A model generated the notes under the pieces. The model saw only the letters and a list, made by a program, of their open reading frames with translations. It had not been told where the DNA came from and did no database searches. 64,000 nucleotides of DNA from Paramacrobiotus metropolitanus. Its lineage: Eukaryota; Tardigrada; Eutardigrada; Parachela; Macrobiotidae. A program made the translations under genes and the position numbers. Within the stretch, counting starts at the first letter, position 1, and every line of letters begins with the position of its first letter. Below are positions 10,090 through 35,426 of this stretch, one piece after another. Location of the stretch: contig NW_026570512.1 in NCBI RefSeq assembly GCF_019649055.1, positions 1 to 64,000 on the forward strand, read 5' to 3'.

Positions 10090-11072
10090 TGACGTGTACT
10101 GGCGTCCCTTAGTACACATCGGTACTACTTTACTACTTCTACCCTTACAACTAAGGCTTAGGCTTTACTACATCTTCTACGCGAGTCCTGACCCCCGAGT
10201 TCTACCTCGACTTCTCAGAAATCCCCAGCAGAGAACTTTGACCGCGACTTGCCATTTCGACGTGACCGCGCTTCGATGACGTAGCTCAACCTATTGTTCT
10301 AGTGTATTAGTTGACCTGATGTTCTCATTAGTCCACGTGTAGTTATGCAGCGGTGTGATTAGTCCACGTGTCCTTAGATGTCTCTTATTGGTTAGATTCT
10401 AAATCCCTATTGTTCTCAGACCCGTACCTGCGCGTACGAAGAGCCAGCACTTGCGGTGCCCACGGCTATATAAGGCGCTCGTCGCCCACACAAATGTCAA
10501 GAGTTGTAATCCCAACAAAAGTAGAGTCTTGTTACTCGATCTGATTAACTTCAGGCTTTTGCTCTGGTCTTCTCTTTCCAAGTGAGGCTGTTCAAACTGA
10601 CCTCTGGGTGACCTTTCACCTATTGTCAGGGGTCATTCCTCTACTTCGTCGACGTGCATTATCATCTTCGGATAGTCTCGTGACGTAACAGGCTACCCAC
10701 TTGATCCCACTTGTTTGCCGTGACCTTTCGGTCCCATCGATCTTCATGCCCTGTAGCGCCAGGTTGATGGATTTGTCATACTCATACGCTTCGGCTACCA
10801 TCTAGCGTCGGACAGGTAACGTATAACTTCACGCATCCCTTGTGTTTCCTTTCGTGTCTTCTCTTTCAGCAGGCTTTCGGGTTCCGGATCCTCCCTATCA
10901 TCCTTGCATATCATCTCATACTTGTACATCAACATCCTTAACCTTTCGGCTCCATGAAATACATAAGAAGTTGAGATTAAGAGTCGCTCTATTCCCCGAC
11001 TGGTCGTGGTCTGGGAAGTGCATATCGCACGCAACCCCTTATTTATTTATTTTCTGCTTCTATTGCACGACA
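10090..11072 (+). repeat. 5' LTR of the giant element
   Basis: 983 nt, near-identical by eye to 34483-35426 over most of its length. Two patches differ strongly: about 10187-10237, and the last ~50 nt before the shared terminal ATTGCACGACA. It contains a TATATAA box at 10467. Short minus-strand open frames in it recur in the 3' LTR only because the DNA is repeated. Confidence 0.9.
10467..10473 (+). promoter_or_regulatory. TATA box of the 5' LTR
   Basis: TATATAAGG followed by GC-rich sequence; transcription would start roughly 25-30 nt downstream, which would define the U3/R border. The same box is in the 3' LTR at 34835-34841. Confidence 0.65.
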
Positions 11073-11090
11073 TGGCGCCCACCGTGGTTC
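11073..11090 (+). promoter_or_regulatory. Primer-binding site
   Basis: TGGCGCCCACCGTGGTTC starts immediately after the CA end of the 5' LTR. TGG pairs with a tRNA 3' CCA end, and TGGCGCCC is the start of many retroelement PBSs. I could not assign the priming tRNA with certainty. The stretch including ATTGCACGAC recurs, diverged, at 31270-31303, and in shorter form at 28221-28240. Confidence 0.75.
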
Positions 11091-12110
11091 AAACTTTCCC
11101 GATGGAGCAGAAAGTTTAATTTAATTTGATAGTACAATTAAATTGATGGTGCAGGATGGTTGGTGGTCAACTCGAGAGAGCCCACATTTAAGAAAGTCCG
11201 TTAGGAGCCACTAGTGTGGTGCAGGAGGTCTGCGTTCCAGTTCTGACCTAGGGTAACCGAGTCCCCGGTTTGATTGATGTATAGATTGATTCGCACTTAG
11301 CGATATATATTTTGGGTGACAATACGGACTGAGAACAGTATAGGCTCTTGAAAACTGTTCGTGTATGCGGCACTTTACGTGTCTATGATTGAAAAGCACC
11401 GTAAGACCATTCGAGGTCAAAATTTCCTTTCATTTTATTTTTCTTTTCTGAACCGGGCAAGCCAGAAAGACTACGTGAATTTGAACGGCAGAACCAGCAG
11501 AATCAGCTGATCGGAATTGTAAGTCAAACGTGCGAAAATTCGCAGTATATTTTAGCCGTTCCTTTAATTCTGAATCTTCGTAAAATGTCGAATTTTGTAA
11601 ATATGGCGTATCCGAGTTAGCGGAGTAGCCATCGTACTACGATTTTGAAAATTTTCGGTAATCAACAGAGCAGATATAGCTGTCTCTTGTTGTGAACGCA
11701 GTGTCACTGTTAACTGGAAATCAGTCACAGTGTTGTAACTAGCGGTTAAAACGAAATTGCAGTTGAAACCTTAAAGGTCAACTGTAAATACGAGTTGTTT
11801 ACTCATGCTTGAGTGCGTGTTGTAACAACGAGATTCATACGAGTTGGTTACGCATGCTTGAGTGCGTGCTGTAACAACGAGATTTTCGGACGTGTTGTTT
11901 CGGTACCGCGGAAGTTGGTGTTGAGTCAGCGTCGTCCTAACGAAACGGTGTTGTCAGGAGTCACAGCTTTGAGTAGCGTACGTGTATTTCTGTCAAGAGC
12001 CGTGGGTCATACGAGTTGGTTGATTCGTCAATCAACGGGAACAGTGTAACTTTCACTTTCTGAATCCAGTTGTAATTGGTAAGGTTAGTCGCGGTTGCAT
12101 TGCACACAAA
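11091..12110 (+). other. 5' leader of the retroelement, with a 49-nt tandem duplication
   Basis: About 1 kb without a credible gene. A 49-nt unit (GAGTTGTTTACTCATGCTTG...) at 11792-11840 is repeated at 11841-11889 with few changes. Open frames crossing it are produced by the duplication. The leader would carry packaging signals, but none can be named from sequence alone. Confidence 0.5.
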
Positions 12111-12954
12111 ATGTCAGAATCAGCAGAAGTAACTGTGAAACGAGATGGCTTTTGGCCATTGAGAAAAGTTGAATCAGATAGATTGCAGTCGAAAGCAGTT
12201 GAAAGCGGGTTTGACACTCGTTTTCAGTTTCCGAAGAAAGTTCCCTTGGCTTAATGTATAGGGCAGTAGGGTTAGAACCTCCGGAGAAAAAGAGCGCGTA
12301 TTGCAGTCAACAATGGGTTGACTGGGAAGACAAAATTCAACGTTGGTAAGAGCTCCGAGTTACTATAGCACTTGGTTCTCGCACGAACGGTCTATCCCGT
12401 CAGCTTATTTGAATATGTCAGAAGCAGAGTTTAAGGCAGCGAAAGAATGGGCGACCTTGAATGTCACTGCGTACGAGGCAGAAGTGCAGCAAAGAAAGGA
12501 GTCAGGTACTGGTAAGAAATCTCGGGATACCATAGTTATGTCAGATGGGCAGTTAAATGCCTCGGTAATTATTGAGAATTCTGGGAATGCGGTAAGTGAG
12601 TCGTTGTTGGACTTGGAAGATAGTTCGGCTTCGAGTGCACAGAAAAATGGCATGACTCTGTCCAGTATGCAGTTGATTTCAAGTCAGTCAGTTGGTACGG
12701 TTAATCCTGGGAAACAGGTAACTCCGTCAGTGGTAAATCCAGATCAAGTGGTGGATCCGAGGAGATCGGTGATGTCGCAACTGGTAAATCCACATTCAGT
12801 AGGGCAGTCAGTAAATGTGCAGAATGCAGAAGTAGTTGGAAATGCAGTTGAAAATTTGAATTCAGTAGCGGTAGGGAATTTTGTAACTCCGTCCAATATG
12901 GCGAGAGAACGTAGTGCAGCGGCTCAAGTGAGCGATGAACGCGTGTTGCTATGA
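12111..12954 (+). CDS. Pre-Gag N-terminal reading frame(s)
   Basis: An ATG at 12111 opens a 47-codon frame (MSESAEVTVKRDGFW...) ending at 12254. A second stretch (VGLEPPEKKSAYCSQQWVDW) continues in another frame to about 12346. A third frame runs to 12954 with a Glu/Lys-rich start (MSEAEFKAAKEWATLN) followed by a Ser/Val/Asn/Gln-rich low-complexity tail. Together they look like one N-terminal region broken by two frame changes. No domain is recognised. Base and codon use match the Gag frame, so it belongs to the element. Confidence 0.45.
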
Positions 12955-14316
12955 GCAATGATCAGAATAATAATACGGTTGGCAGTAATTTCCTTGGTAA
13001 TATTACGATGAGAGAAGGAACTCCTTTTCTGAAAATTCAGATGATGAAAATAATACGGCGTTTAATTGTGAAAAGTCGTTGTTGGATGAAGATATTCCTT
13101 TTGATGAAAATGTGAATAACCTTTTGCATCCTCTTCAGTCAGATTTGCGGCATTTTATTTTTGAAAATGATTTTGATCCTTTAAATCAGGAATTTGCGCA
13201 ATAAGTAAGTGAGGTTGACGCTAAGTTGAAAGCTTCTAAATCGGAGCAAGAGGCATTAGCAGTCACTCGGGACTCATTGGGTACTATGATTCGGTGTACG
13301 AAAAATTATGTTGCATTATGTCTCAGGCAATTGCAAAATAGCAGTGAAATTAATCGGTTGAATGAAATTTTGTCTAAAGACGATAAACTGAAAAATAAAC
13401 TGCACAGTGATATTTCGGCTCTAAGGCAGCAGTTAACGGCAGTTCAGGCAAGTAATGCAGAACATGAGAAAATGTTCGTGCACTTTCGAGTAAGTGTCAG
13501 GTGAATGAAAACGTATTCGCGATCTTGAGGAGGAAGATTCTCAGTCGTCGAAATTAATTTTGGAAAATCAGGAGCTTAGTGCTCAGTTGCGGTCAGTAAA
13601 TGAACATTTGCAGAAAGTTAAGGCAGAAGCGTCGAAATCACTTGGTTCGAGTAATTTGCAGGCTTTAGCTGTTTTCAAAGAAAATGAGAAGAAATTGCTT
13701 TTGGAAATTGAGCAGTTGAAAGTTAATTGTAAATTGAATGTAATGCGAAAATTGTTGCGGAAAAAGATTTGAAATCAGCTCTGAGTAGGAACGCAAGCTT
13801 AATGCAACGCTTGAAGAGAAAGAGAAATTAATTCATTCAGTTGGTGTCAGGATTGACGGTAAAGATTCCGAAATTCTGGATTTAATGCAGCGTATGGAAA
13901 AATTGCGAGTTGAAGCAGAAGAATTGAAAGGTAATCAGATTTCGCATGAAAGAGAGTGGAATTTTGAACCTGAAGTTCGTGTAGGTACGGGTAATTTGGC
14001 TTTTAATCAGCCACCGGCTTACACTAATATTTCGCATATGTCAGGTCAGTCTCAGGGTTTTGTACCGAGCAGTAACGAATGAGTAATCATGGTAGCGGAA
14101 GCAGTCAGTTTTACGCGGGTAATTCAGTCGGTAGCAGCAGCAATCAAGTTTGCGGGGTGAAAACTCTCCGAGTTCCCTTAGCTTCGCGTAATGACAGTGG
14201 TCAGTTAAACGAACCGAGATCAGATCAGCCTCGTTCGGCAGCATCTCGTGTTAGGCATCAGTCGCAAGATAGGCGGCATACGCAGGCGGTTAACGTAGGG
14301 CATGTTCCCTTGATTA
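12955..14316 (+). CDS. Pre-Gag coiled-coil region, frame-broken
   Basis: Coding character continues in successive frames: 13060-13203 (acidic, ending FAQ then TAA), 13204-13504, 13510-13772, 13885-14082 and 14079-14351. The 13226-13772 stretch is a coiled coil with heptads such as INRLNEILSKDDKLKNKLHS and EIEQLKVNCK. At 14079 an ATGA overlap joins two frames. The region lies between the leader and Gag and is unusually long for Gypsy elements. Either it was one protein now split by indels, or it is several small proteins; the sequence cannot decide. Confidence 0.4.
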
Positions 14317-17300: not shown

Positions 17301-17427
17301 GTATAAAGTTGATTCTGATTGGAAACGTTGGATGATTCCGAGACTTGATCCGGAAACGCGTGAGATGAAACCGAGTCTTGCGGATTTCAATAAGGTTTTG
17401 GCGAGCACAACAGCGAGCGCAGGGTGA
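14317..17427 (+). CDS. gag-pro: Gag plus aspartic protease
   Basis: A 1036-residue uninterrupted frame. Residues about 75-225 resemble the retrotransposon Gag capsid domain (IEHWLTQVNQC, then GNAVLWFQGLL). About 240-490 is an Arg-Gly and Asn/Gly-rich tract (GRGNYGSRGNYAARG) suited to RNA binding. At residue 494 is a zinc-knuckle-like CX2CX3HX4C, one residue short of the usual CX2CX4HX4C. At 590 is the protease active site DTGSS, followed by HIILGMDFF, the usual second protease motif. A long tail has three copies of a QVCGG-type motif whose DNA (TTTGCGGGGG) matches the polypurine tract at the 3' LTR. The ORF stops with GGG TGA, after which coding continues in the +1 frame. The start is the first ATG of this frame; an upstream fusion is possible. 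Confidence 0.8.
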   Translation: MLEIPVNNGIDDDGNVDMEDVNAAPAGGLAAQQNANPDWLGVIKIMAEAMKNANSSKPSNVMKLQPYEGKRKSGSIEHWLTQVNQCRLSNGWSDNDTCRQVVGALKGNAVLWFQGLLRDKPNRDWENFYKKEILEHFNIATSPADIRREMTARIFRDEDTVDNYADSFIKWFNDLELGDIEKTSILLEGLKSNKPDWYRHLFIMNITDPYELIKHMRELEKLQNILGGEKKSPETQRVRSGGNNGFSGFSGTFRGGRGNYGSRGNYAARGNSFRGQYSGRGNYARQYGNFGNNNGGNWSGQPVQMVPPVYQNPVVLQQPVLSSVQQPVYAPVQMSNPVQMSNPMQISDQQSFVQIAQQPGSMAMAPVNSGQPVQNFQPLQNNQNMMNSQNFQNQGNFRQMAPMNNFRGQNNFRPRFQNGNNFNRGGFNGNNGNGNFRPRFNGNNNFGNGGNNFGNNGGNFSNDIRNDQQQNSGQFNESQIQRDKWRLSNGREICYKCHDLHAASACQRPLAYPRLIEPTTEMLRRYGAQVNVIEFEYVWQKKPAQCNTTEVIDMSKYPASELVIHKPTLDAQAWYCTIDVNYKQVKVMIDTGSSISIIPFRLAKKLDLHIFQCPSHVKGMLVNTAYNGQHAVEPLSTVITIHEFGTAFEHTCLVSTNCDRDHIILGMDFFVTKPFILDFSSMTWRMIRQNSLAKLHENALRKTCDMDEIVREHNFVELAPVHTYYGKSIPALMQANMLGFAPYAEFLPYKTAHNVYIGAPVDICQMEMDYAVRKWPRVSDSICYADVDNSESQLSNNQQAGGGKQVCGGVSQSTAQQREVTNDTAINRSVRDSELADVRKRYDKLLGHVDEPVSVSNPNFRGQNNGRIFEEEVFSITNSGEQQVCGGVSQQVCGGESMRENVRGNVENVRTYAVPPAQTLQNNSQNKSIVQRRTFPDSNMVKRNQHFMERGINQPAVNGDKAVNNGKSLTIAGKKLNVVPVEQNNGKRVPVKSAQYKVDSDWKRWMIPRLDPETREMKPSLADFNKVLASTTASAG
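16732..17002 (+). repeat. Three in-gene copies of the 3' polypurine-tract motif
   Basis: GTTTGCGGGGGTG occurs at 16732-16744, 16966-16978 and 16990-17002. It matches 34472-34484, the sequence across the start of the 3' LTR. A shorter version with one G fewer is at about 14148. All in-gene copies encode a Val-Cys-Gly-Gly-type peptide. Confidence 0.7.
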
Positions 17428-17794
17428 CGCTAAGTGTTGGTATCATTTGCATTTAAATCCTCAAAAGGCAGATACAAATTTCATTAAGGAGGAGATTAAT
17501 TGGTTTACGATTTACGATGGAGTTTTGTGTCATAAGAATGAGGCGCGAGGCGCTAAACCACGTATTTTTGTACCGTATCATTGGCGTGTTAAATTAATTT
17601 TAGCAGTACATGCGGCAGTTAAGCATGAGAAAATTTTGAAAGATACTACGACTTATCGTCTTTTGGTTGAAAAATTCTATTGGCCGAATATGTTAGTTGA
17701 AATTGATCATGTCGAGTCTAATTGTAAGTTCTGTTATCCTGAGCATCGGGATACACGTCCTCCGAGACATCCAGATCCGGCAAGTAATGAGTAA
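17428..17794 (+). CDS. Extra integrase-type HHCC zinc-binding domain between protease and RT
   Basis: In the +1 frame after Gag-Pro (frame open from 17378) lies FTIYDGVLCHK, a VPYHWR block, then His-X3-His (HAAVKH, about 17609-17628), KFYWPNM and Cys-X2-Cys (NCKFC, about 17720-17733). This is the layout of the integrase N-terminal domain (DG-L-Y, VP, H-X3-H, FYWPGM, CX2C). A separate canonical copy precedes the real integrase core at 20600-20850. The frame ends PASNE then TAA at 17794; the next 163 codons stay in the same frame. No DDE core accompanies this copy, so it is a duplicated or repurposed domain fragment. Confidence 0.7.
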
Positions 17795-20700
17795 TTGCAG
17801 TCAGATTTGTCGAAAGATGAAGTGGCGACTTGGGTTGATCCGAAATACACGAATAAATTCGCGGTGTTGCAAGGAGAAACTGGAGATTTTGTCAATGGAA
17901 AATTTGTACCGGCTGAAGGTAGTTACGATGTTGACCTTGGTAAGGCACCAGTCTCAGCGGAAGACCAGCGTGCTATGGCGAGAGCTATTGCTCGAGTGGA
18001 TTTTGACGGTCCTATTCAGGTAAATAGTCCAGGAGTAATCCGTGGTCCGTTACCGAGTAGTCTGTTGGATCCGATTAAGCGGAATAGAGTAGATACGGCG
18101 TATAAGAAGAGCGATAAGCCGACGAAGGCTAAGAAAAACGGTAAGAAAGTGACATTTTCAGGAATAGCACTGGCAGATGATGATGAGTGGTCAGTTCCAC
18201 CTGTTCAGTCGAATGTTAAGCAAAACGTTAGACAGTCGAATGTTGAGAAGAGAAATTCTTCGGAATGGGTCTGTTCCTCGGAATGAGTCTGCTTTTCGGA
18301 ATGAGCCTATATTTGAGTTGAACAAAGAAGTACCTGCAGTGAGCAGTGAAACGGCACGTCTTGTGAATGAAGCGGCAACGAAGCAGAATAAACCGGCAGT
18401 TGATTTTTGCACTATGGAAGTTTTTCCTCAATTTGCGGTTGATATTAAACCTCGGTCCAAAGGTGTGATTCGTGCTCGTATAAATAAGTCTGAATCTGAA
18501 ATTGCTGAATTGGTGAGAAATGGTTTGGTTGAGCAAAATTTCGAGTATGAAGGTAAACGGTTTGGCAATTTACTTCTGTTTGACGGTGTGATTGATGTTA
18601 ATGAAAATGGGTGTTTACGTATTCCCGTGATGAACATGTCAGATAAGGTAATGAGATTCGCCAATTCTACATTTTTGGGTAAACTGAACCCGGTTGAAGA
18701 AGTTTATGCTGTTGGTTCTGAAGACTTTAATAATAGCTTTCATGACGTAGTTCGTGCTGAATTAGTAGCTTGCGAATGTAATGAGATGAACATAATAAAA
18801 AAATCGGGCACAAACGAAGCGAATCCGGAAATAGAGGAAATTTTTAGTAAAATAAAACTTGGTAATTTAGCAGATGAGCAAGATAAGGCAGACTTTAAGA
18901 AGTCAATATATAAAGCTAAAGGTGTACTTCCGACGAAAGAAAGACCGGTAGGCTGTTGTACAATTTATGAGCATCCGGTAAATACGGGAGATAGTCAACC
19001 TATTAGGACTCCACCGTATCGCACATCGTTGGAAGATCGTAAGTGGCTGAGAGCCAAAACAGAAGAAATGATAAAAGATGGAATCATAGAACCAACAAAT
19101 TCCCCATGGGGAAGTCCGATTTGCATAGTTAAGAAAAAAGATGGATCAAGAAGACTAACGGTTGATTTTAGAAAACTGAATGACAAATTGTTAGGTAGTA
19201 GTTACCCACTGCCCAGAGTGGACGATATTTTGAACGCGCTCAGAGGAGCAACAGTGTTTAGCAAGATTGATTTAAAAAGCGGTTTTTGGCAAATTAAATT
19301 AAAAGATGAAGATAAACAGAAAGCCACAATGGTGGGCGAGGATTTTCAATATCAGTATAGAGTTCTCCCTTTCGGGATGAAAGACGCGCCGGCTGCGTTC
19401 CAGCGCGCCATGGATCTCACACTTGTTGGTATCAAATGGAAGAACGCGTTGGTATTTATTGATGACATTATTTGTTATAGTAAAGATAAAGCTCAGCATA
19501 AAAAAGATATTGAAGAATTGTTGTTGCGTTTAGAGGAGTGTGGCTGGACCATAAATCCTGAAAAATGCGAGTTTTTTGTTGATACAATTAGTTTTTTGGG
19601 TCATGTAGTGGATAAGAATGGAATCTCTTGTGATCCTGAAAAAACTGAGGCAGTTCAGAAATTTGGGCCATTTAAGGATAGGAAAGACATTATGCGGTTT
19701 TTAGGTATGGTCGGTTACTACCGGCAGTTTATTGAGCATTTTCAAGAAATGGCAGAACCGTTGCAGCGATTAATTCCCAAAAAAGCAAAATGGGAATGGG
19801 GACCTGAACAGGAGGAAGCAGTAAAAGCGTTGAAAAAAGCGTTGATGGAAGCACCGGTTCTGGCGAGGTTTGATCCTGAAGCAAACACAAAAATTCACGT
19901 TGATGCGAGTATGACGGCTGTTGGTGCAGTTTTACAACAGGAAATTAATGGTGAATGGAAACCGGTAGCATTTTTGAGCAAAGTTTTAACCCAGTCTCAG
20001 AAGAAAAATTACTTTCCATCTGAGCTCGAAGCATTTGGATTGGTATCGGCATTAAGGAAGTGGAAGCACTTTATTGGAGACAAGAAAATCGAAGTCCACA
20101 CGGACCACCAAGCTCTAACGTTTTTGCACAATCTAAAGGATATGGGAAGTCGTATTGGCCGTTGGGCACTTTACCTGCAAACAATTTAATGTGAAGCCTG
20201 AATATGTAAAAGGCAAGGATAACGTAATAGCAGACGCGCTATCGCGTAACCCAGGTGATCAGCCCGAACCGGCATCAAATGAGTCGGATGTCGAAGTCGA
20301 CTATAGACAAGGGGAGCCCTTTAATGGAGATGAAAAATTACAGAAACAGTGCGAAGATATCAGATTACAGGAAGCGAAGCTGAAAACTGTCAAGGTTCAG
20401 TGCATGTCTATGGAAACTAGGTCAGGCCAGCCCAACGGTGAGAATGGTTCAGTAGGGATTAAACAGTATATGTTAATCGCGAGCGATAAAGCAGAGTTTT
20501 GGGCGAACGAGCAGTCAAAAGACCCGGCCATTCAAAGGTGGCGTTTAGCAGCCCAAAAAGAGGCGGATGGGATTAAACTATCGCCATTTGAAGTTAAGCA
20601 GCTGAAAAAGTTTGTCTTGAGACAAGGTGTTCTCTATTATCGGTATTGCATGGAAGGTAAAGAATTTTTTATGTTCTACGTACCTCTTAAATGGCGCACA

Positions 20701-22037
20701 AAATTTTTACAAGAAAATCACGATAAGGTGCATAGTGCACATCTGGGTGTAACAGCAACATGGTTAAGAATGTACAGAACCTTTTACTGGCCCGGGTTGA
20801 GGCAGGATGTCGAAAGTTTGCAAATCATGTGTGCAATGTCAAGCAATAAATCCTAAAAATACGGCAACGCCAGGTTATATGATGACGAATCCGATTGTTG
20901 AGCCGCGTTCGGCTTGGGCTATCGACATAGCACCAGCACTCCCGACAAGCAAAGAAGGAAACAAAAACATAATTATTGCGGTAGACTACGGATCGAAATT
21001 TGTGATTATGGAGGCAGTTAAAACAATCGATGCATTTACAACGGCGATGTTTTTGTATAGACGTATTTGCATGGTGTTTGGCATGCCAGTAAGTATTACA
21101 AGTGATCGCGGCACGAACTTTATGTCCGAAGTTTTTAAAGAATTAATGGCACTCACTGATACTACACACGTACCGACCGCGGCCGGTCACCAGCAAGGTA
21201 ACGGCTTAGTGGAAAAACGAGTCGGTGAGGCGAAGAGAGCAATTGCAAAGTATATTAACGACAGGCAAACGGATTGGGATTCATTTTTGCCCGGTCTATG
21301 TGCGGCATTTAATAGTAAGGTTGTTAACCGTACGGGTTTTCCCTTTTGAACTTATGTTTGGTACCAAAATGCGGTTACCCATCCACAACTTTATCCCGGA
21401 AGTAGAAGTGGAGAAGTATCCGATACCGGCGCATGTGTACGTTCAGAAATTACAGCAAACACTAGCGGAGTGTTTGGACTTAGTTCACATGGGTGAATTA
21501 CAGCACAAGTTTGCGGATAAAATTCGTTATGACGAGAATAAAGTAGCAGTCGAATACAAGGTCGGCGATCAGGTTATGTTGCACAAGATAGGGCAGACAA
21601 AAGGGAAAAATAATTCCTTGTTACCTAAGTGGACTTCGGGATATGTCATTGAGAAGAAAATTGATGACGCGCATTATATTGTTACGTCCACTGCAAAGGG
21701 CAATGCCAGACGTGATAGGGCCCACGTGTCCCGGTTGAAACCGTATACGTTTAGAGAAGCAACCCCTGAAACCGAACCGGAAGACAAACCGGTGAAACCG
21801 TTGAAATGTAAAGAAGGTTTAGAAGTACTGGGTGAGAATGTTTTGCTTCCCGATCCGGTAATCCCCGACACTGGGACGTATGAGTTGACGGAAGAGGAGT
21901 TGGCCTTAGTTGCAGCCCAACCGGTAAATTTTGAGCGTAATAAAAAAGGGAAAACTATTGCACAACCCAAGCAGGTTCCTGTTCAAACAAAAACAGCACC
22001 AAAACGTGGGAGGGGTCGTCCTAGGAAGAAATCGTAA
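17795..22037 (+). CDS. pol: Reverse transcriptase, RNase H and integrase (frame-broken Pol)
   Basis: Coding runs through four frames: 17795-18286, then to 20189, 20856, 21349 and 22037. A linker (17795-18800) leads into RT (about 19000-19560) with LTVDFRKLN, PLPRVDDILNAL, the polymerase motif FIDD (about 19454; F replaces the common Y) and FLGHVV. RNase H follows (IHVDASMTAVGAVLQQ, FPSELEAFGLVSAL, VHTDHQALTFL). Integrase has HHCC (HSAHLG, FYWPGL, CKSCVQC), the D-D-E core (WAIDIAP, ITSDRGTNF, GNGLVEK), and a basic tail ending in an AT-hook (KRGRGRPRKK, about 22000-22034). Each of the four joins fits one extra base in a short homopolymer (TT near 18257, AAA near 20175, AAA near 20814, TTTT near 21346). 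All motifs are otherwise intact. Confidence 0.85.
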
Positions 22038-23433: not shown

Positions 23434-24368
23434 AGTTAAAACGTATCCCGTTCTGAATTATGAATGCGAAATGGTGTTGGAAAATTTTATGCTTTTATTG
23501 TATTGCTTTTATTTTTGGATGTTTTTAAATACGGTAAAAGGGCGCTTATATAGGCCGTACAGTTGATGTAAATAATACTTCGAAATCAGCGCAGAGTGGG
23601 CACCTTGTATCTACGCGATTACGAATAAGTGAATTAATTCTGTTCTATCTCTAAACTACGGAAATGATAATTGTCTCGAAAATTTTAGAAAGTAAAATAA
23701 GAAGGGAATTAAAACGGAAATAAAAACCGGAGGAACAACGTCTCTAGCATAGCGAAGTATCACAGAATATAGCGAGCATGTTATAGCATAGGCGTTCGTA
23801 TTCAATTTCGGATCGCCACCGGAAGTGCCGGTATGAACGGAATCTCACCAAAACAAAACTTATAGCTCTAAAACACGCGCCCTTCAAGCTGATGTCGTTT
23901 CTAGAATTTTAGGAATGCAGGGGACACGGGAAATCAAGTACTTTCGGTCGTGTCGTAGCGTGCTTAAGTATAGCACAGTAATACATAGGGGTTTTGGGGT
24001 GCAATGGACACCGGTAGTGAGGGATGCTCGCAGAAACTCAAATCCGAGATCTCTTCACCTCAAAATACAAAAATAAATTAAAGAACCAATAGATCCTTTA
24101 AATTTTTGCAAAAGGAAGGACAGTTCGGGTCTTTAACGTGCTTAGATCTTCGAAGGTTCGCCGATGGCGTGGCGTACCGAAGATCGCTATGTTATAGCAT
24201 AGGAAATAGCCAGCGTACAGTGTGTTGATGGTCAGAAAACTCTAAATTTAAAACTCTCACGTTCTTTTCGGTTCTTCCCTTTTCTTCGGTGTTTTCCGGC
24301 ACGATTGTGCGGAAATTTTATTTGTTTATCAGCACGAAGTGTGCTATTATTAATTTTTTAGTGGAATT
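23434..24368 (+). other. Spacer between accessory genes A and B
   Basis: AT-rich, with no open frame of substance. A pyrimidine-rich stretch (CTCACGTTCTTTTCGGTTCTTCCCTTTTCTTCGG) lies about 100 nt upstream of the next ATG and could be a promoter or splice-acceptor region. Confidence 0.3.
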
Positions 24369-25656
24369 ATGGCGGAAAAGAAGAGTTCGGACGACTATCA
24401 GATCGTCCCGGTTGGTCGACCGCGTCAGCGTCAGCCTGCAGTAGCTGCGGTGGTGGCCGAAGAGTTGGCGGAGCAGATTGCTCCTGTGAATGCCGTGTTT
24501 GTGGCCGCAGATGATATTGCGGTGGGTGAGGAACAGGTCCTCGTCGCGGCTGAACAGCCAGTTGTGGAAGCTAGCAGTTCGGGCGCGCAGGCCCAGGAGC
24601 AGAACGCGGAAGTGGCAAGCAGCAGCCATGCAGGTACGGGATACACCGTATTTAGGTACCCTCTTGTTGCCCTTGGTGTGTGTGTGTGTGGCAGCAGTTT
24701 TCAACTCTGCACATGTTTGTAGACGCAGTCGGACCTGCGGTATACGGGAATGGAGTCCCGCGTAACGCCAACCACAAGGCGCTCCCGGCCAAGTTGATTG
24801 CCGAGCGTGTTGAGCGTGCGGAGTGGTCCAAAGAGCAGCAACTGGAGGAGATGCGTGCCGCCCACAAACCGGGCGAAGTGTACCGCACCCCGTACGGATA
24901 TAAGGAGGTACAGACTCCGACGAAGGCAGAATTGGCAGATATCAAGCGAGCCAAGAAGGAGTCCAAGAAGACTGCCAAAGCGGCGAAGGCAGCCGAGCAG
25001 AAACCGAAGACGCTGGCCGAGTTGTCGGCTGAACTGTACAACAAAAAGTACAAACCGGAGAAAGTCCGTGACGGAAAACCGCAGAAATTTCGCGTCAACT
25101 GTGCGAATCTGAAGGGAAACTGAACTGGGAGCCTATTGAAGATGCGGTCATGAATGAGTTCAAGTTTCCTAATTACTTGTCGGAGGCTCAGCGTCTGAAG
25201 GTGAAAAAAGCAATGGTGCAACGTTGTTTCCGTCGTGAGCCCGTGGCGATCAAACGGTTGGCAGAATCTGCCCATGGAGGAGAAGCCCCGCGTGCGCGTA
25301 AGTGCCCAAAGATTCCGTTTTTAAGCACTTACGGCAAGGGTCGTAACACGCGATTGATTACGGATTACGGCAAGCGTGTGACTGCTCTGCCTGCGTTGAC
25401 CAAGGCGACCGGGAAAATGTATCGAGCGACTACCCGTTTCCAAATTGCGGAGAAACGTGCTGAGGTCGGGTCGAAGTTGGTTCATGGGATCAATTACATC
25501 CAAATCACCCGTAAGCCTCGTCGTACGATCGTCAATGATGAGAAGCGTCTGCAGAATTTAGTTCGTGGAACAGCGCGCAAGATGCGGCCTGGGGAGAGTA
25601 TGCCCGTTGATTACCCGTTCCACGAGCTGTTTGGGAAGAAACCAAAGACTGAGTGA
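24369..25656 (+). CDS. Accessory protein B: spliced gene with a candidate -1 frameshift
   Basis: Exon 1 (24369-24633) encodes an Ala/Val/Gln-rich segment. An 89-nt intron (GTACGG...TTTGTAG, 24634-24722) joins it in phase 1 to exon 2, which gives a Lys/Ala-rich coiled region (IKRAKKESKKTAKAAKAAEQ) ending FRVNCANLKGN and TGA at 25121-25123. The -1 frame continues without loss into LNWEPIEDAV and then a basic 168-residue region (SKLVHGINYIQITRKPRRTI) to 25656. At the switch is G GGA AAC directly before the stop, a canonical X XXY YYZ slippery heptamer (25114-25120) in the correct phase. Conventional reading gives a short form and frameshifting a long one, as in retroviral Gag-Pro. A one-base deletion in GGG or AAA would look the same. 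No family recognised. Confidence 0.65.
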
Positions 25657-28447: not shown

Positions 28448-28520
28448 TGGCCTAGTGGCTGAGAGATCTCGCAGTAGTTATTCAAGACGAATAGTAACAG
28501 CGATGATCGGAGTTCAACTC
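28448..28520 (+). other. tRNA-Leu/Ser-like sequence
   Basis: A-box TGGCCTAGTGG and B-box GTTCAACTC, set within a short GGAG...CTCC T-stem, are 53 nt apart, as in tRNAs with a long variable arm. An anticodon-stem-like ATTC...GAAT surrounds CAA. No acceptor stem closes convincingly, so I call it tRNA-like and not a functional tRNA gene. Confidence 0.45.
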
Positions 28521-28582
28521 CTGACTTGTAAATTTTTGTTTCGTAGCGTGTTTATTTTTAATGGAATTATCGAATTTCGTAG

Positions 28583-28656
28583 TAGTCGAGCGGTTATGAA
28601 GTGGCGCTACAGATCTGGACATTGTCATCGGTAGCAGTATAGCCATAGTTCGAAAC
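28583..28656 (+). other. tRNA-like sequence with A- and B-boxes
   Basis: TAGTCGAGCGGTTA matches a tRNA D-arm and GTTCGAAAC matches the T-loop. They are 54 nt apart, again fitting a long-variable-arm type. The acceptor stem is not evident. Confidence 0.45.
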
Positions 28657-29598
28657 CCGAGCAAGTTGTAATTTTTGTATTTCGGAGTGTGTATTTTTGC
28701 AGTAATTATGAATAGAGTGTAGTGTCCGAGTTGTTATGCGTTAAGGTGCACATCTTTGTGGAATTATGTTTTTTGGAAATTCAAGAAGTATTGCAGTAAA
28801 ATTTAGAATGGTAACAGTAATTTTTCAGTATTAGCGGTGTTGTGGTGTTGTAATTTTAGTAATCTGCGTAGTGGCGCAGGGTACATGTTTTACAGATCAT
28901 AGTAGTTTCTGTCAAATAGTAGGACAAGCAGGTTTCGAGTTCAACCCGTGCTAGCAGTAGAATTTTCTTTTTTATATCCAGTTCTGAGCAGATGAATGAT
29001 TTTTTATTTTTAGTAAACTGTAGGAATTGTCTTATGAATTATGAAATAAGCAGAAATCAGAGAACTTTTATGACAGAGTATATGGAGAATGGTTGCGGTA
29101 ATATTTACGGATTGTTATAGGCAGTTATACAGTAGCAGTCTAGGGCGTAGTAATTTACGGCATTTGTTGTGAAAATTCGTAGTAGTGCAGCGGTATCAGC
29201 GGTCGAGCTATGTAGCGCTGTAGTGGTATTTATGCGGATAACCTTTTCATACTTCGTGTTACTCAGTGTATTATTAGCGGCTTTAGCAGTAGCAATATTG
29301 TCAGTAGTTTTACTTCGTACTTTTATTGGATTTCGTAAAACACAGAAATTGTACTTTGTATTGAACATTGCGGCAGTATCAGAGTACGCCAGAAAAATAA
29401 AATCAAAATAGAACTTTTCACCAGTGTTCATCGCAGTTGAACATTATTCACTCGGTAATTTGTGCAGAATATACAGAATAAAATCGCAAAAGGCGATCTG
29501 AATAAAATTGAACGTAAATATACAAGACGTAAGAGAAAAGATAAAAGAAATAAAATCAATACAGCAGTTCAGCAGACACGGTAAAAGACTTCGTAACT

Positions 29599-30918
29599 TT
29601 AGTTCTTCTTGAAACGCTTGGCAGCAGGAGTTTTCAGATGCAGTGATCCATCAGGTTTACGTGAGAAAACCATAGCAACCGATTTAGGCATGTCTCCACG
29701 TGTTTCAGTTCCTGGTGCGTTAGGACGCTCAGCAATTACAGTAGTTGGATCGCGTAGCAGAGATAGTGTGTCCTCAGCAGTCTCAGTTTTCGGCAGTAGC
29801 GGAATAGGATTTGCGGCCAAGAGTCCACACAGAGGCATCGGTCCGTGCATCGCAGCAGCATCGATTTTCATGGCAGTTTGACGCAGAACACTTTGTGCAT
29901 CAGTTCCGAGATAGGGAATTCGTACTTCGATAGTAGTTCCTTCGCGAGCACAGCGATCACAGCCACGATTATGCTCTTGAACCAGCATTCCTGTAATGAT
30001 AGTAAATCAGTAGGGAAATTTATACAGAAATTGTAGTCGTAAAATTCAGTATTAATAGTCAGAAATTGCGGTTAAATTAGCGGAAATATATAGCAATTAA
30101 TTTTGTAAATATTTAGGCGGAAATGAAAAGTATGCAGATTTGTTTTGGTAATTAGTAGGGAAATACTCGCGGTAAATTATAGGAAATTATGCAATAATTA
30201 TTTATGCGGAAATAAAGAGATACAGTAAGCGGTCAATTATTTTAGCTGTTTTATCAGATTTTTGTATGTGTTTGATCTTACCGACTCCTCGTGCTAATTC
30301 GTCCGACAGTCCTTGAGTTCGTCGATCTGTCATTTCGCGGTATACGATCGCACTCACGAACTTGTCTCCTCCGATAGACGTTAGGCACCCAATTTCCAGT
30401 AAGAAGTTTCTTTCCTTGTGGTAGTACTTGATCCAGTTGTGTAAGCAGACAGTGTATGTTGTTTGGATGACGCGTTGAATTTCGAATTTCGTCATTGCGT
30501 ATCCTCCTTCCTCCAGCACAGTCAGAATAGCGTTTCGCAGTTGCAGTCGCGTGGTAATTTCCTCGTTGCGATCTCGCTGAATTCGTGACGATACTTCCAG
30601 GAAACAACGTCCTTCTTTCACTCTTTTGCGTAGAAACCCAGAAGTTACGGCAGTCTCGATGTACTTGTCGATGTTCAGCATGGTGAATTCATGATGTGCG
30701 TTGTTCAATGTAGCCTTTAGATATTCAACATCCACGTAAAATCCAGAATTGGTGTGGTGTCCTATGATAGCTCGGACAGCGAACTGAAAAGCCTCATACA
30801 GTCGCATTTTTCGCGTGTAAAAACTCGTAGTGTCACGATCGAAAATTTGTTCGATACCAACATGCAGTCCAGCAGGAGCAGTAGATAAGGAAGTAATAGC
30901 GTTTAGCATAGCGGACAT
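29599..30918 (-). CDS. Accessory protein D: antisense spliced gene (342 aa, unknown)
   Basis: This gene lies opposite to gag-pol. Exon 1 runs from ATG 30918 down to 30282 and ends GTC G before GTAAGATC. Exon 2 (29990-29599) follows ATTACAG. The phase-1 join gives ARGVG-MLVQEHNRGCDRC in frame, and the coding length (1029 nt) is a multiple of three. Exon 1 has repeated helical segments (for example AFQFAVRAIIGHH, YLKATLNNAHHEF, FEIQRVIQTTYTVC). Exon 2 has a CX2C and ends with a basic PAAKRFKKN, like a nuclear signal. No family is recognised; a DNA-binding regulator is a guess. There are no indels, in contrast to gag-pol. The exon-2 ATG could also act alone. Confidence 0.65.
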
Positions 30919-31542
30919 TTCAGTAATTATAGGTCACGCTTTAAGGAAATATAACGTCTTAGTAATAATTTCGGTAGGAAAACGTATGAGGAAACAGAAC
31001 TGAAAATTTTTCGGAAGCGGTGATGACTTTTATAGGCTTATAGCAGGAAATTGTGCAGCGTGTTCAGTGTATGTGTGTATCGCCCTTGTATGGCAGTGTG
31101 TCAGTGCAACCCGTAGTACGTATGTTCTTCTCATGTATTGTACGCCTCAGTACTTTAGCGCGTATTTCGGTGCAGATGTACAGTTTTTCTTCTCACAATT
31201 ATGGAATTGTTAGTTTTTGCGGTCAGATTTTCAGATTATCAGATTTTAAGTAGTAGGATATCTTTTTCCTTATTGCACGACTTGCGCCCAATCGTGGTTC
31301 AAATATGCGGAAATAACCTTCAGTTTGTGGAAAAGGCAACTTTACAGTAAATTTTCGGTGTAATTAGTAGCGTATGGTTAACCCTCGTGGTAGGGCAGTT
31401 TTTGTGTACAGTGTGCTGAGAGCGATGACAGTGCAGATTTCTTGCGGTCTCTAACTTCAAGAGATACTGACAGTGTTGTGATTTCGTCAGAGCAGTGAAC
31501 TCTTTTGTTGTGGTTTTTCGATTTTTGATATTTTCGGTAATC
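30919..31542. other. Divergent spacer between antisense gene D and sense gene E
   Basis: A likely bidirectional control region between divergently arranged genes. It contains the second internal LTR-end/PBS-like junction (31270-31303). The short frame at 31053-31253 is Cys-rich but has no support. Confidence 0.4.
31270..31303 (+). repeat. Internal LTR-end/PBS-like junction, copy 2
   Basis: TTATTGCACGAC, then TTGCGCCCAATCGTGGTTCAAA, parallels the true junction ATTGCACGACA / TGGCGCCCACCGTGGTTCAAA at 11062-11093, with small differences in the TGGCGCCC part. It lies 240 nt upstream of accessory gene E, as the true PBS lies upstream of the gag region. Confidence 0.6.
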
Positions 31543-32540
31543 ATGCCTCCTAAAGCGATTAAGCGTAAGCAGGAAGAGAGTTCTTCTTCTTCTTCTTCCA
31601 GTAATAGCAGTTCGAGTAGTAGTGTTAACTTTGCTCTGATGAATCGGAAGTGTCTTTCATCTCGGTCTCCAGTATTCCTTCGAATGAGTCAGATGTGACG
31701 GAAACTCAGAGATTTTTGGCAGATGTTGATCCTTACGCAGTTGATTATATCGTGAGAGAACCGGATCCTGAAATTGGTAATCGCAGTGACGTAGCAGATG
31801 TTGAGAGTGTGCACAGCGGCAACTCCAGTGCAGGTCTCGAGAAATCAGCGGAAATGTTCGATTGTTATCAAGAAGACGGGAAACGTTATAAGGTGATCTC
31901 TACGACTGATACTGAGAGTTTTACGACCTTGATGTCTACTCCCAGCGAAACGTCTGATGATGAAGATGAATGTGCGTCGTGTTCAACTGGTCCTTTACCT
32001 AACACAGCGGAGAGATTAGCTGATTTGGCGGACGTGAATGTTGAAGTTGAGTCAGATCGCAGTTCGGAATTTGAAGAGCAACCAATGGTGTATCACGAGA
32101 AAACTCCTCCAAAACGTGATGGCAAAGGTAACATAGTCCTTCATCCTGGAACTCGTTTGTTTTTGAATGGCAAGTTGTACCATGCCGGAAAACTTATCAG
32201 TGTGAAGAAGTTTAACCATTTTGTGCGTAATATGTCCAGAGAACGGAATCGATATCTTAAAACCCAGTATTTATTTGCTCATCCTGATTCGATTGAGAGT
32301 CTAAACTTGATTGCGCAGTTGCATCAGAGAAATGACAGCGTCGTCGACTTTCCTACGCGGATGGTGTTCAATGGCGGGTTATTGCATTCGCAGCATGTTG
32401 ATAAACCTTCCCCAGCAGCAGTGCGGAAGAGGCAGCGGGAAATCAGTCCTGAAATTGTTGAAATTCCTTCAGTTGTGTTGTCGCGTGAATCTTCTCCTGA
32501 AATCCCTGTTCAGTCGCGTAAGAAGCAGCGAACTTTTTGA
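31543..32540 (+). CDS. Accessory protein E: Ser-rich acidic protein
   Basis: The ATG at 31543 starts MPPKAIKRKQEE followed by a poly-Ser tract. A -1 frame change between about 31629 and 31645 (one missing base would explain it) leads into the main frame (DESEVSFISVSSIPSNESDV). The body is acidic, then a central segment (LHPGTRLFLNGKLYHAGKLI) looks like a small folded unit, and the end is basic (PVQSRKKQRTF). The poly-Ser tract and acidic character suggest a disordered phosphoprotein. No family recognised. It lies just downstream of a PBS-like junction. Confidence 0.55.
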
Positions 32541-32952
32541 ACTCTTTTGTTGTCGGTTCGTATTTGTTGTGTTTTTACTTGGAATGGTGTGTAGTATTAC
32601 GGTAACTACGCGGAAATTGTCTTTTGTTATTTGCAGTCGTCGTACAGGAACGGTAGTATTTTTGTGTCAGTGCTTTTCGCGGTATTTACTCTGGTCGTAC
32701 GGATCGGTGTACTATGACGTATTTCACTTTTTATTCGTTGATCAGTGTAATCTGTGTGATGCAAGTACGAATTGCGGATGTGCGGTTGTTCAGTCATTAA
32801 AACTTGTGAGCGCGTCAGCGCTAATGCGGTTGGAGTTTCGCAGTCAGAATTCAGTGTGTGGTTTGAGAACTTTGTATTCGCTTTTCATTTTTATTTGGAG
32901 ATTTTATTGCGACCTTTTACTTTTATTTCCTGGTCATTTTTGCTTGGTAGTT
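32541..32952 (+). other. Spacer upstream of accessory gene F
   Basis: The open frame of gene F extends upstream through this stretch (to 32311) but encodes a hydrophobic, Cys-rich sequence unlike the gene and overlaps gene E in another frame, so I treat it as non-coding. Confidence 0.4.
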
Positions 32953-33870
32953 ATGGATCTTAACGCAGCTTTCAATTATATGGTTGATGCTTTGTGTAGT
33001 AACGGTCATCAGTATGGTAATCGCGGAAATTATCGTGGTCGTGGCAATAATCGGCGTATGAATTACTATCGTCCTTATTCTCGTGGAAGAGGTTATAACG
33101 GATATCAGAATAATGCTCAGCAGTGGCAGCGAAATCCTCAGTATCCTTTGGCAAATAATGGCGGAAACGGTGTTAACGGTGTTCAGTTGGTTGTACCGGA
33201 GAATGTACCTATTGTTGGAGCGGTTATGCCTGTTGTGAATAATCCTGGTTGGCAAGCTCAGAACGCGGAAGTTGTCCAGCAGAACATGGCGGCTTTACAG
33301 TTGAATCAGCCTGTGGCGAATGAGGAAATGGACATTAACGAAGAGAACATTGTTCCTCAGCAGCAAGGTCAGAATGTCGGTGTCGCTAATGCTAACGGTG
33401 TTGTTGTTGTGAACGATCAGAATCCTGTGGCGGTTGGCAATGTGGTGAATCCTGAAGTTGTAGCTCAAGCGGTGAACAATGTTCAGAATGCGATGAAGGG
33501 CGGAAATGTTGCGGCAGAACCTTCTCAGAATGCTGTGGTGAATGAACCTTCAATTGTGGTTCCTGGTATTGCGTATGTTCCTATGAATGGTGACGGAAGA
33601 CCTCAATATCCTTCAATCAATCCCTCGGATATTTTTCAGCGTAACGCAGATGAAGAACGTCGTAAACAGTCAGCAGAGCGAGCTCGTATGGCGGCGGATG
33701 CTAAACGTAATGATTTGTCCGGTTTGCAGTCTCGTTCCTCATATCCTGATGTGCAGCGCAGTCGTCTTCGTGTCCAGTCATCTGATAACCTTGTCGCCCC
33801 TGATCCTAGAGCTCATCGTCGTAATAATTCTGTGGATAATTCTTTGCAGTCAGCCTGTAAACCTCAGTGA
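32953..33870 (+). CDS. Accessory protein F: Arg-Gly/Asn/Gln-rich RNA-binding-like protein (305 aa)
   Basis: ATG 32953 was chosen because the composition changes sharply there. Residues about 20-60 form an RGG-like and aromatic tract (GNRGNYRGRGNNRRMNYYRP) like the nucleocapsid-type part of Gag at 15030-15220. A Val/Asn/Gln-rich disordered middle follows, then a charged region (NADEERRKQSAERARMAADA). No zinc knuckle is present. It may derive from a Gag nucleocapsid region or encode an RNA chaperone; that is inference from composition. Confidence 0.6.
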   Translation: MDLNAAFNYMVDALCSNGHQYGNRGNYRGRGNNRRMNYYRPYSRGRGYNGYQNNAQQWQRNPQYPLANNGGNGVNGVQLVVPENVPIVGAVMPVVNNPGWQAQNAEVVQQNMAALQLNQPVANEEMDINEENIVPQQQGQNVGVANANGVVVVNDQNPVAVGNVVNPEVVAQAVNNVQNAMKGGNVAAEPSQNAVVNEPSIVVPGIAYVPMNGDGRPQYPSINPSDIFQRNADEERRKQSAERARMAADAKRNDLSGLQSRSSYPDVQRSRLRVQSSDNLVAPDPRAHRRNNSVDNSLQSACKPQ

Positions 33871-34471
33871 TGTCATGGTTTGTAACCTTGTGCGTTGGCA
33901 TTTTTGTCATGATTTTGCGGTGTATTGTCAATTTTTTTTCGCGTTTATATGTTCTCAATTTTTGCTGTATATACGTTAGCGGAAGACAAGTTTAAGTTCT
34001 CACTTCGGTCGTGTGTTGAATAAACGTTCGGTGTATGGATGAAGTATGGAAACATGGAAGAAAGCGGAAGTAATTGGAGCAGTAATTTTGGAGTTATAGG
34101 ACATTTTCCATCGTATTTTAGCTGTGCAGTATGATTCGATATCTTTTTGAATACGATAACACCCTGGATCTCATGGACGTTCCTGCTCTCCGCCTTTCCA
34201 CTTCCTTGGACTTCCGGATTGCCAGTTACGCTCCAGGATCCGATGACCTATAACACTCAAACTCACTAACAACTTACCGGACCGAGCGATGTCACTTACT
34301 TTTGATGGCACCGGATAGTCGGGATGGAATTTGGCGATAGTGCTAGATGTTGCACGCACTATGCGGATGGAGCAGATGTTACTTTTTCCTATGTCCCTAT
34401 GTTCCTTCCTCTTCGTTCCACGTCGTTCCGCAGAGCTTCACTTTTGTTCCACTACGATCCAGAGAAATCTC
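33871..34471 (+). other. 3' untranslated part of the element
   Basis: No gene. AATAAA-like ATAAACG at 34019 and a G-run immediately before the LTR are the only features seen. Confidence 0.4.
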
Positions 34472-34484
34472 GTTTGCGGGGGTG
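34472..34484 (+). promoter_or_regulatory. Polypurine-tract-like G-run at the 3' LTR
   Basis: GTTTGCGGGGGTG spans the LTR border, the last two bases being the LTR's TG. A purine run abutting the 3' LTR is where plus-strand synthesis is primed in LTR elements. This one is short (GCGGGGG). Identical copies lie in the gag-pro gene. Confidence 0.6.
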
Positions 34485-35426
34485 ACGTGTACTGGCGTCC
34501 CTTAGTACACATCGGTACTACTTTACTACTTCTACCCTTACAACTAAGGCTTAGGCTTTACTACATCTTCTACGCGAGTCATGACCGCGACTCCGAGTGT
34601 CACTTTGACCGCGACTTTCCATTTCGACGTGACCGCGCTTCGATGACGTAGCTCAACCTATTGTTCTAGTGTATTAGTTGACCTGATGTTCTCATTAGTC
34701 CACGTGTAGTGATGCAGCCGTGTGATTAGTCCACGTGTCCTCAGATGTCTCTTATTGGTTAGGTTCTAAATCCCTATTGTTCTCAGACCCGTACCTGCGC
34801 GTACGAAGAGCCAGCACCTGCGAGTGCCCAGGGCTATATAAGGCGCTCGTCGCCCACAGAAATGTCAAGAGTTGTAATCCCAACAAAAGTAGAGTCTTGT
34901 TACTCGATCTGATTAACTTCAGGCTTTTGCTCTGGTCTTCTCTTTCCAAGTGAGGCTGTTCAAACTGACCTCTGGGTGACCTTTCACCTATTGTCAGGGG
35001 TCATTCCTCTACTTCGTCGACGTGCATTATCATCTTCGGATAGTCTCGTGACGTAACAGGCTACCCACTTGATCCCACTTGTTTGCCTTGACCTTTCGGT
35101 CCCTTCGATCTTCATGCCCTGTAGCGCCAGGTTGATGGATTTCTCATACGCTTCAGCTACCATCTAGCGTCGGACAGGTAACGTATAACTTCACGCATCC
35201 CTTGTGTTTCCTTTCGTGTCTTCTCTTTCAGCAGGCTTTCGAGTTCCGGATCCTCTTCTTCCTCCTTGCATATCATCTCATACTTGTACATCAACATCCT
35301 TGAACTTTCGCTCCATGAAATACATAAGAAGTTGAGATTAAGAGTCGCTCTATTCCTCCGACTGGTCGTGGTCTGGGAAGTGGTATAGGAAGATCTGACA
35401 ACGTCTTTCAATTATATTGCACGACA
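34483..35426 (+). repeat. 3' LTR of the giant element
   Basis: 944 nt, same orientation as the 5' LTR, from TGACGTGTACTGG to ATTGCACGACA, with a TATATAA box at 34835. It differs from the 5' LTR mainly in the segment at about 34581-34606 and in the last ~50 nt. The flank (GCGTAC) does not match the 5' flank. Confidence 0.9.

Follow-up and report, generated by a model that had tools for sequence, protein, structure and literature searches.

Coding antisense genes of long terminal repeat (LTR) elements are known from plants, a fungus and retroviruses of the human T-cell leukemia virus (HTLV) type, and the parts of this literature available to us give their roles in retrotransposons as unknown (PMC7264820, PMC11963269). 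In the plant elements Retand, Grande and RIRE2, which include non-autonomous copies, a conserved antisense open reading frame (ORF) lies between pol and the 3' LTR and is predicted to encode a DNA-binding or nuclear protein, and the HTLV protein HBZ is likewise an antisense nuclear product of an LTR element (PMC11963269, PMC7264820, both in part). The giant planarian Gypsy element Burro shows that animal LTR elements may reach 25-30+ kb and carry extra domains and accessory ORFs, and the available text of the same paper describes large retrotransposon derivatives (LARDs), LTR copies that lack their own polymerase and are moved in trans (PMC6431247). LTR elements with swapped extra ORFs are known from another kind of microscopic animal, the bdelloids (PMC5408684, in part). 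Here we describe positions 10090-35426 of a 64,000-nucleotide stretch of the tardigrade Paramacrobiotus metropolitanus (contig NW_026570512.1, positions 1 to 64,000; hereafter the window), which is a copy of a family of giant Ty3/Gypsy-type LTR elements of 24-29 kb. A literature search, in which the tardigrade transposable element curation paper was available in part (PMC11071193), yielded no description of such elements in tardigrades.

The tardigrade element differs from each of these systems. In Burro the extras belong to one huge polyprotein with an envelope-like region, whereas the tardigrade element has separate 3' genes, one of them antisense and spliced, and no envelope was seen; the word "antisense" is absent from the main text of the Burro paper as far as it was available (PMC6431247). 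Pfam detected no envelope-like domain between gag and pol, as in Burro, in the gag-pol ORFs of the window, no Burro profile having been compared. In the plant elements, as described in the accessible text, the region between POL and the 3' LTR is 2.9-6.6 kb long against ~12 kb in the tardigrade element, and the antisense product has a TRP28 domain, whereas the tardigrade element has a tandem winged helix, further sense genes and a conserved intron. At E <= 0.1, 19 antisense proteins match eight Pfam families in all, and TRP28 (PF04195) is not one of these. HBZ, a bZIP protein, has its promoter in the 3' LTR, unlike the tardigrade gene, which encodes winged helices and has an apparent internal divergent promoter, again in an element where no envelope was seen. 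Bdelloid elements carry just one ORF3, which follows pol and is of enzymatic or membrane type, and no antisense gene is described in the available part of the source (PMC5408684). Like LARDs, the tardigrade family includes LTR copies that lack reverse transcriptase (RT) and integrase and share LTRs with an RT-bearing partner, but these copies retain Gag, protease and several selected cargo genes.

Structure of the element

The element is bounded by two direct repeats 24.4 kb apart. These are the matched LTRs of ~1 kb that an initial annotation of the window, made from the sequence, had reported; both have TG...CA ends, and their aligned cores agree at 874 of 894 bases. A primer-binding site beginning TGGCGCCCA and a G-run ahead of the 3' LTR, reported in the same place, are both present in all seven copies examined, the window included. 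The complete primer-binding site of the window, TGGCGCCCACCGTGG, may be tRNA-Lys-like. All 23 internal 1-kb bins have a positive GC skew (minimum 0.104), and the 38 bins of the flanks, two of which exceed the internal minimum, have a mean of -0.009.

The assignment to Ty3/Gypsy is based on the paired LTRs, the primer-binding site, the polypurine tract and the gene order Gag-protease-RT-RNase H-integrase (Gag models being below cut-off) with a Ty3-type RT, whose closest solved structure is Ty3 RT itself (E 8.5e-73). Target-site duplications were found in three of the seven copies examined (C91, C46 and C2; such labels denote contigs of the host assembly, which comprises 169.8 Mb in 533 contigs). 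The full Gypsy gag-pol of the initial annotation stands as far as the domains of pol are concerned: aspartic protease, RT, RNase H, H2C2 and integrase core are all detected by Pfam inside 14314-22037. In the window, however, pol is split over several frames, and the Gag models stay below cut-off; in the C80 copy an open frame of 1412 aa spans RT. The first, sub-cut-off H2C2 segment corresponds to 17369-17791.

The cargo is inherited and selected

Downstream of pol lie the sense genes g1, g2, g3, g5 and g6 and an antisense gene (Table 1). When 22050-34450 was used as a query (14 of 59 candidates scored), the block 25959-34141 recurred, whole or in part, at 13 or more other places plus C100; among the partial copies, most of the middle is missing from C76:52191-56976, C50 and C86:420856 end early, and only a small portion of the left part is present in C17. 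A search with the left half, 10090-18759, brought up further copies that match it at 92-96% (12 of 316 candidates scored). With the LTR as a query (40 of 123 candidates scored), all 12 LTR pairs measured are 23.9-28.9 kb apart. The C17 pair has a mixed orientation relative to its cargo, and the C109 pair, with only ~12 kb between its LTRs, could be cargo-poor. The C91, C46 and C2 copies have 4-bp target-site duplications (GAAC, ACGC and AAAC) and LTR identities of 977/981, 982/982 and 976/977, respectively, and are therefore recent insertions. The LTRs of C101 agree at 974 of 979 positions; in C86b no duplication could be read and a PBS-like sequence follows the 3' LTR, so that its arrangement is not a simple one.

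The extra genes are real because, as judged from codon comparisons between copies, they are under purifying selection: the ratio of nonsynonymous to synonymous substitution rates (dN/dS) is 0.05-0.33 throughout, except against C68. In that error-rich copy, which has 12-16 frame-changing gaps across the g2 region, the g2 parts 24710-25120 and 25090-25653 gave 0.97 and 1.68. Seven non-gene ORFs, one being a shadow of g6, served as controls and gave ratios of 0.19-5.52 in 48 comparisons; seven of the 48 were below 0.6, and four of these seven fall in 29154-29408. The claim of at least five accessory genes is therefore upheld. As for splicing, the antisense gene is the clearest spliced gene, and g2 probably has an intron near 24633-24710. 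The gene at 31.5-32.5 kb, g5, is not spliced: its frame is broken in the window, within or close to a serine repeat, and in three of four other copies checked it is a single open frame of 331-332 aa. The one g5 comparison with no ratio is that with C100, the same locus as the window, where there are zero synonymous changes. Some cargo genes have a stop or frame change in single copies.

No cargo protein has an above-threshold Pfam match, and weak matches to DUF5041, Mob_synth_C, ACTH and similar families were discarded as below cut-off; PHROGs gave no match for seven cargo proteins and NCBIfam none for the four cargo proteins in a set of nine. The initial annotation recognised none of the cargo proteins, which agrees with the Pfam result, but the antisense protein is now predicted to be a tandem winged helix. 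Judging by its RG/N-rich composition, g6 probably binds RNA.

A second family, diverged in sequence, has the same layout. Its C78 copy contains the end of pol, sense ORFs, an antisense two-exon gene, a divergent sense ORF and an RG-rich ORF. The divergent ORF is a weak positional counterpart of g5 (E 5e-4), the RG-rich ORF occupies the position of g6 with a pairwise E of only 0.027, and g1 has no similarity to the single C78 ORF with which it was compared. A 601-bp query containing the 575-bp LTR of this family (40 of 188 candidates scored) revealed at least eight LTR pairs 23.4-24.2 kb apart, that of C78 being 100% identical, and seven of the eight enclose both a sampled RT and an antisense match, arranged as expected. 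The RT-containing open frames of C78 and C52 are 3,537 and 3,517 aa long. Tandem and inverted repeats of the LTR/3' region of this family were seen at C338:19227-23291.

Because the block recurs at 13 other places, is under selection and has its antisense gene in a diverged family, the cargo, 10-12 kb of 3' genes, is inherited with the element, to which it belongs, and is not stray host DNA.

An old antisense gene with an intron

The antisense gene noted by the initial annotation is confirmed by two exons, conserved splice sites and selection in the antisense frame. The exons encode a 342-aa protein, and both splice sites are conserved at all 11 loci examined; one of these, C100, is the window's own locus and is the eleventh dN/dS comparison, with no synonymous change. 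Nine diverged members have GT at the matching place (GTAAG in seven, GTGAG in one and GTAGG in one), and the position of the intron and the predicted fold are kept at 25-29% identity. Searching the genome yielded 101 matches to the gene, of which 23 (the window and three C100 pieces included) are at >=53% identity and the remaining 78 at 25-35%, some of them fragments.

After removal of two of the three C100 pieces, the 99 matches left were compared with 160 sampled RT places (150 of the 1953 candidates of a first RT search and 10 from a search with the RT-bearing middle), an RT being looked for within 30 kb of each match. For at least 44 of the 99, a sampled RT lies upstream and on the other strand; for one, an RT lies on the same strand. 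The distance in the 44 pairs ranges from 5.7 to 17.2 kb with a median of 9.9 kb and quartiles of 9.6-10.0 kb. Conversely, the antisense gene lies downstream of 27 of the 40 relatives of the window RT (itself included), compared with 17 of the 120 other sampled RTs.

The predicted structure contains a winged helix (three helices and a beta-hairpin) twice in tandem, with a pLDDT of 77.6 for the two-domain model and 87.3 for domain 1 alone, and the model of domain 2 superposes on H1/H5. The protein ends in TPAAKRFKKN, a putative c-Myc-like nuclear localisation signal. Weak matches to PF00538 (linker histone H1/H5) occur in 6 of 19 antisense members, the best at 3.3e-4; the top score is 21.0 against a cut-off of 22.4 bits, and four of six rerun members match. 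Two adjacent winged helices are also found in the N-terminal WH1-WH2 of MOZ/MORF, and the available part of the source reports that WH2 of MORF overlays H5 and is located at the dyad of the nucleosome (PMC9908889). MOZ and MORF are host acetyltransferases, however, and the likeness is one of predicted fold. A likeness of domain 1 to SAMD1 appeared in the two-domain model only, not among the matches listed for domain 1 alone, and is not claimed. The model suggests that the antisense protein is a nuclear regulator of DNA or chromatin.

A word-based search of 5.8 billion proteins, which may miss distant relatives, found no homologue of the antisense protein at E <= 0.01 among 185 candidates, and none among 2486 when a 19-row alignment was used. 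A scan of IMG/VR gave seven pattern matches, none of them confirmed, and three matches from a PDB sequence search with the alignment (best E 0.38) were taken as chance. A linker-histone profile search of the genome gave 61 matches, one of them a clear host H1 (104.9 bits). None of these matches lies within 20 kb of a listed antisense match, which lends no support to a descent of the antisense protein from host H1. Among the 60 other linker-histone matches, seven are above the Pfam cut-off and two have a sampled RT less than 20 kb away. On C296, C42, C37, C7, C63 and C160, pairs of H1-like domains ~580-600 bases apart share one open frame; these tandem H1-like genes are another multi-copy gene family.

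Copies lacking reverse transcriptase

In seven copies read in the middle (C91 L009, C101 L011, C46 L015, C86b L013, C2 L017, C50 L021 and C76b L023), tblastn with the RT ORF of the window matched its N-terminal linker part only, and neither the RT domain nor the integrase core was found in these middle regions. The 5' half of six of the seven is fully or largely DNA-matched to the RT-free window segment 10090-18759, C2 being outside the scored matches. The RT-bearing middle 18700-24650 (40 of 146 candidates scored) was matched over its full length only in C80 (94%) and C347 (86%) among the candidates scored; sister families match the window RT at 69-79%. The window LTR is 94-99% identical to LTRs of other copies of both the RT-bearing and the RT-less type, and C347 has no match to it among those scored. 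The recent insertions C91, C46 and C2 all read as RT-less, which implies mobilisation in trans; we infer that RT-less copies move in this way.

Such copies carry a second linker-like domain, an H2C2-like segment and ORFs of 101 and 200 aa in the middle; in L009, alternative ORFs 556-1857, 1740-2126, 4371-4676 and 5608-6210 stand in place of RT-integrase, g1 and g2. Since RT-less copies have other ORFs here and C68 joins an RT-less middle to a window-type 24.6-26.1 kb part, the middle modules appear to have been exchanged.

A possible mode of action

We consider it fairly probable that the giant Ty3/Gypsy family carries an inherited, selected cargo with a regulatory antisense protein and has RT-less partners that are moved in trans. 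Sense RNA from the 5' LTR would serve as both genome and gag-pol message. The 30919-31542 gap is a candidate bidirectional promoter, and a promoter inside the element, at 30.9-31.5 kb and firing both ways, would give the antisense message and the g5 and g6 messages. The antisense message would be spliced only in that orientation, so that its intron would survive reverse transcription of the sense genome; the presence of the intron thus points to the sense strand as the RNA that is replicated. The antisense protein, with two winged helices and a basic tail, would enter the nucleus, bind DNA or nucleosomes and regulate proviral transcription or chromatin, like the HTLV antisense gene and as proposed for plant Retand. 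The RG-rich g6 may bind the very long element RNA, and copies that lack RT and integrase and keep Gag and cargo could use the enzymes of the RT-bearing type, with which they share LTRs.

Several observations weigh against this reading or parts of it. The pol of the window is distributed over several, broken frames, and no matching target-site duplication was found for the window copy, nor for the C80 or C101 copies. No sampled RT occupies the expected place for 55 of the 99 antisense matches, 13 of the 40 RT relatives have no antisense match, and one of the eight second-family LTR pairs, on C69, has neither among the matches listed; the missing partners of antisense genes and RTs may lie outside the matches listed or be truly absent. 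As for the protein, its function is deduced from a predicted fold and an NLS-like motif. In structure scores cullin WHB ties with histone H1/H5, and a winged helix can serve protein-protein contact. Taken by itself, domain 1 is a winged helix of generic type with no DNA-specific best match and with no Pfam match above cut-off, PF00538 included, and Foldseek against PDB and BFVD gave no match to the antisense protein at E <= 0.001. Finally, inheritance, selection, layout and recent insertion are read directly from the copies, whereas the two-way promoter, the nuclear action and the movement in trans are deductions.

Alternative explanations

The alternative that survives best concerns the window copy itself, which might be purely an assembly chimera of two elements. 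The window has ATAT at the left flank and GCGT at the right, and C80 has GCGT at the left and ATAT at the right. The LTRs pair in the same crosswise manner: the 5' LTR of the window and the 3' LTR of C80 differ at 7 of 980 positions and the 3' LTR of the window and the 5' LTR of C80 at 3 of 943, with 20 differences in 894 positions inside the window copy and 22 in 924 inside C80. Since the ends pair crosswise, LTR divergence within the window does not date the insertion. The assembly does contain indel errors, as C100, which covers the right half of the window and its right flank, shows 6 substitutions and 23 gap events in 1,966 aligned bases; because gaps far exceed substitutions, C100 is the same locus assembled twice. 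A true reciprocal exchange would look the same, however, and the window copy is either an end exchange between two insertions or an assembler switch with C80 (C80:420960-449900), so that we place a pure chimera at about even standing; the family-level findings are independent of the window copy. C68 matches the left flank of the window at 95-96%, and its element differs from ~18.78 kb onward; it was rejected as a plain second haplotype since beyond 18.78 kb the element is unlike that of the window.

A different function for the antisense protein, that of an integration-site or pre-integration-complex factor tethering integrase to nucleosomes, is unlikely, although more plausible than the explanations that follow. 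The tie between cullin WHB domains and H1/H5 speaks against it, and separate antisense expression would better suit a late or latency function.

It is improbable that the antisense locus matters as RNA, through double-stranded RNA or small-RNA control. This possibility was raised for plant antisense ORFs in the available part of one study (PMC7264820), but the tardigrade antisense frame shows third-position bias and dN/dS of 0.05-0.24, and its intron and predicted fold persist in diverged members.

Equally improbable, in our opinion, is a degenerate endogenous retrovirus whose cargo includes a highly diverged envelope. The gene content is complex, and the giant Burro elements have an envelope-like region according to the accessible text (PMC6431247); two short ORFs in sense orientation, 73 and 89 aa long and hydrophobic (19-residue means 2.58 and 2.02), precede the 3' LTR in C101 and C80 (L034 and L028). 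However, 18 cargo and related ORFs read in frame contain no strongly hydrophobic 19-residue stretch, the highest mean being 1.57, and the pieces read of the extra 3-4 kb before the 3' LTR in C101 and C80 contain no ORF longer than 101 aa. The absence of a recognisable envelope, asserted by the initial annotation, is consistent with these data.

Cargo-free copies and a unique block would have indicated that a single LTR element had captured the 22-34 kb block, either as host DNA or as a nested insertion. This is next to impossible: although no cargo protein has an above-threshold Pfam match and 18700-24650 has full-length matches in just two other places among the candidates scored, the recurrence of 25959-34141, purifying selection and the antisense gene of the diverged family refute it.

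Features of the window and its surroundings

Table 1. Parts of the element and of its gene complement in the window (dN/dS between copies; segments compared in brackets)
Feature	Positions	Strand	Remarks
5' LTR	10090..11071	+	TGACGTG...GCACGACA; pairs best with the C80 3' LTR (7 substitutions in 980)
Primer-binding site	11072..11086	+	TGGCGCCCACCGTGG
Gag and aspartic protease ORF, 1037 aa	14314..17427	+	Pfam gag-asp_proteas 3.1e-7, Asp_protease_2 1.8e-6; Gag models below cut-off
H2C2-like zinc-binding segment and following ORF	17369..18286	+	Pfam Integrase_H2C2 7.7e-5, below cut-off; related segments in other copies
RT and RNase H	18168..20189	+	RVT_1 1.2e-33, RT_RNaseH 3.2e-28; dN/dS 0.02-0.07, 3 comparisons
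Integrase (H2C2, core, C-terminal part)	20137..22037	+	Integrase_H2C2 1.2e-11, rve 1.2e-8; dN/dS 0.04-0.19; frame-broken in window
g1, acidic, 256 aa	22663..23433	+	no Pfam match; dN/dS 0.10 and 0.12 (22627-23430), two comparisons with match
g2, one or more genes, several reading frames	24366..25656	+	basic C-terminal half; dN/dS 0.09-0.25 against C80 and C347 (24366-25653)
g3, 128 aa	27401..27787	+	dN/dS 0.12-0.24 (27401-27784), 10/10 comparisons with match
Antisense gene, exon 2	29599..29990	-	ends TPAAKRFKKN; dN/dS 0.05-0.21 (29602-30006), 10/11 comparisons
Antisense gene, exon 1	30282..30918	-	two tandem winged-helix domains (predicted); dN/dS 0.11-0.24 (30205-30918), 10/11 comparisons
Gap between divergent antisense gene and g5	30919..31542	.	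divergent layout here and in C78
g5, acidic	31543..32540	+	frame-broken in window; dN/dS 0.14-0.33 (31632-32537), 9/10 comparisons
g6, RG/N-rich, 300 aa	32968..33870	+	dN/dS 0.07-0.17 (32968-33867), 8/8 comparisons
Polypurine tract region	34469..34482	+	CTCGTTTGCGGGGG; identical in 7/7 copies
3' LTR	34483..35426	+	pairs best with the C80 5' LTR (3 substitutions in 943)

On its left the element abuts a DNA transposon (7372-10095, inverted terminal repeats 7413-7629 and 9841-10095) and sits at its right terminus; parts of this transposon are widespread in the genome, with 273 matches (26 of 862 candidates scored). On its right a Slu7 gene (35877-37998), whose two best matches are from Ramazzottius varieornatus (59%) and Hypsibius exemplaris (62%), ends ~450 bp from the 3' LTR and is convergent with the element. 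These two matches identify the host as a tardigrade and set aside a nematode, to which size and GC had pointed; an Rfam search for SL1 was negative, with no signal from its controls either. The sole tRNA gene found in the window is tRNA-Val (AAC) at 59948-60021.

Implications

The initial annotation likened the locus more to a mobile genome than to a simple retrotransposon, which is fair as a description. Going further, one may tentatively picture an undescribed, envelope-less tardigrade lineage that works as a two-part system, with an ancient, intron-bearing antisense protein that would bind nucleosomes and act in latency or on chromatin, RT-less partners of 26-29 kb with Gag and regulatory genes, and swappable middle modules, but we regard this fuller picture as doubtful.

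The elements described here represent an animal lineage with an antisense gene that is old (25-35% identity between families), intron-bearing, strongly selected and of a predicted DNA-binding-type fold, and some of the elements are so young that their LTRs are identical. What antisense proteins do for retroelements thereby becomes testable. In addition, a large coding load is carried by apparently envelope-less Gypsy elements in a small animal genome, and selection maintains the cargo in copies whose own polymerase is gone.

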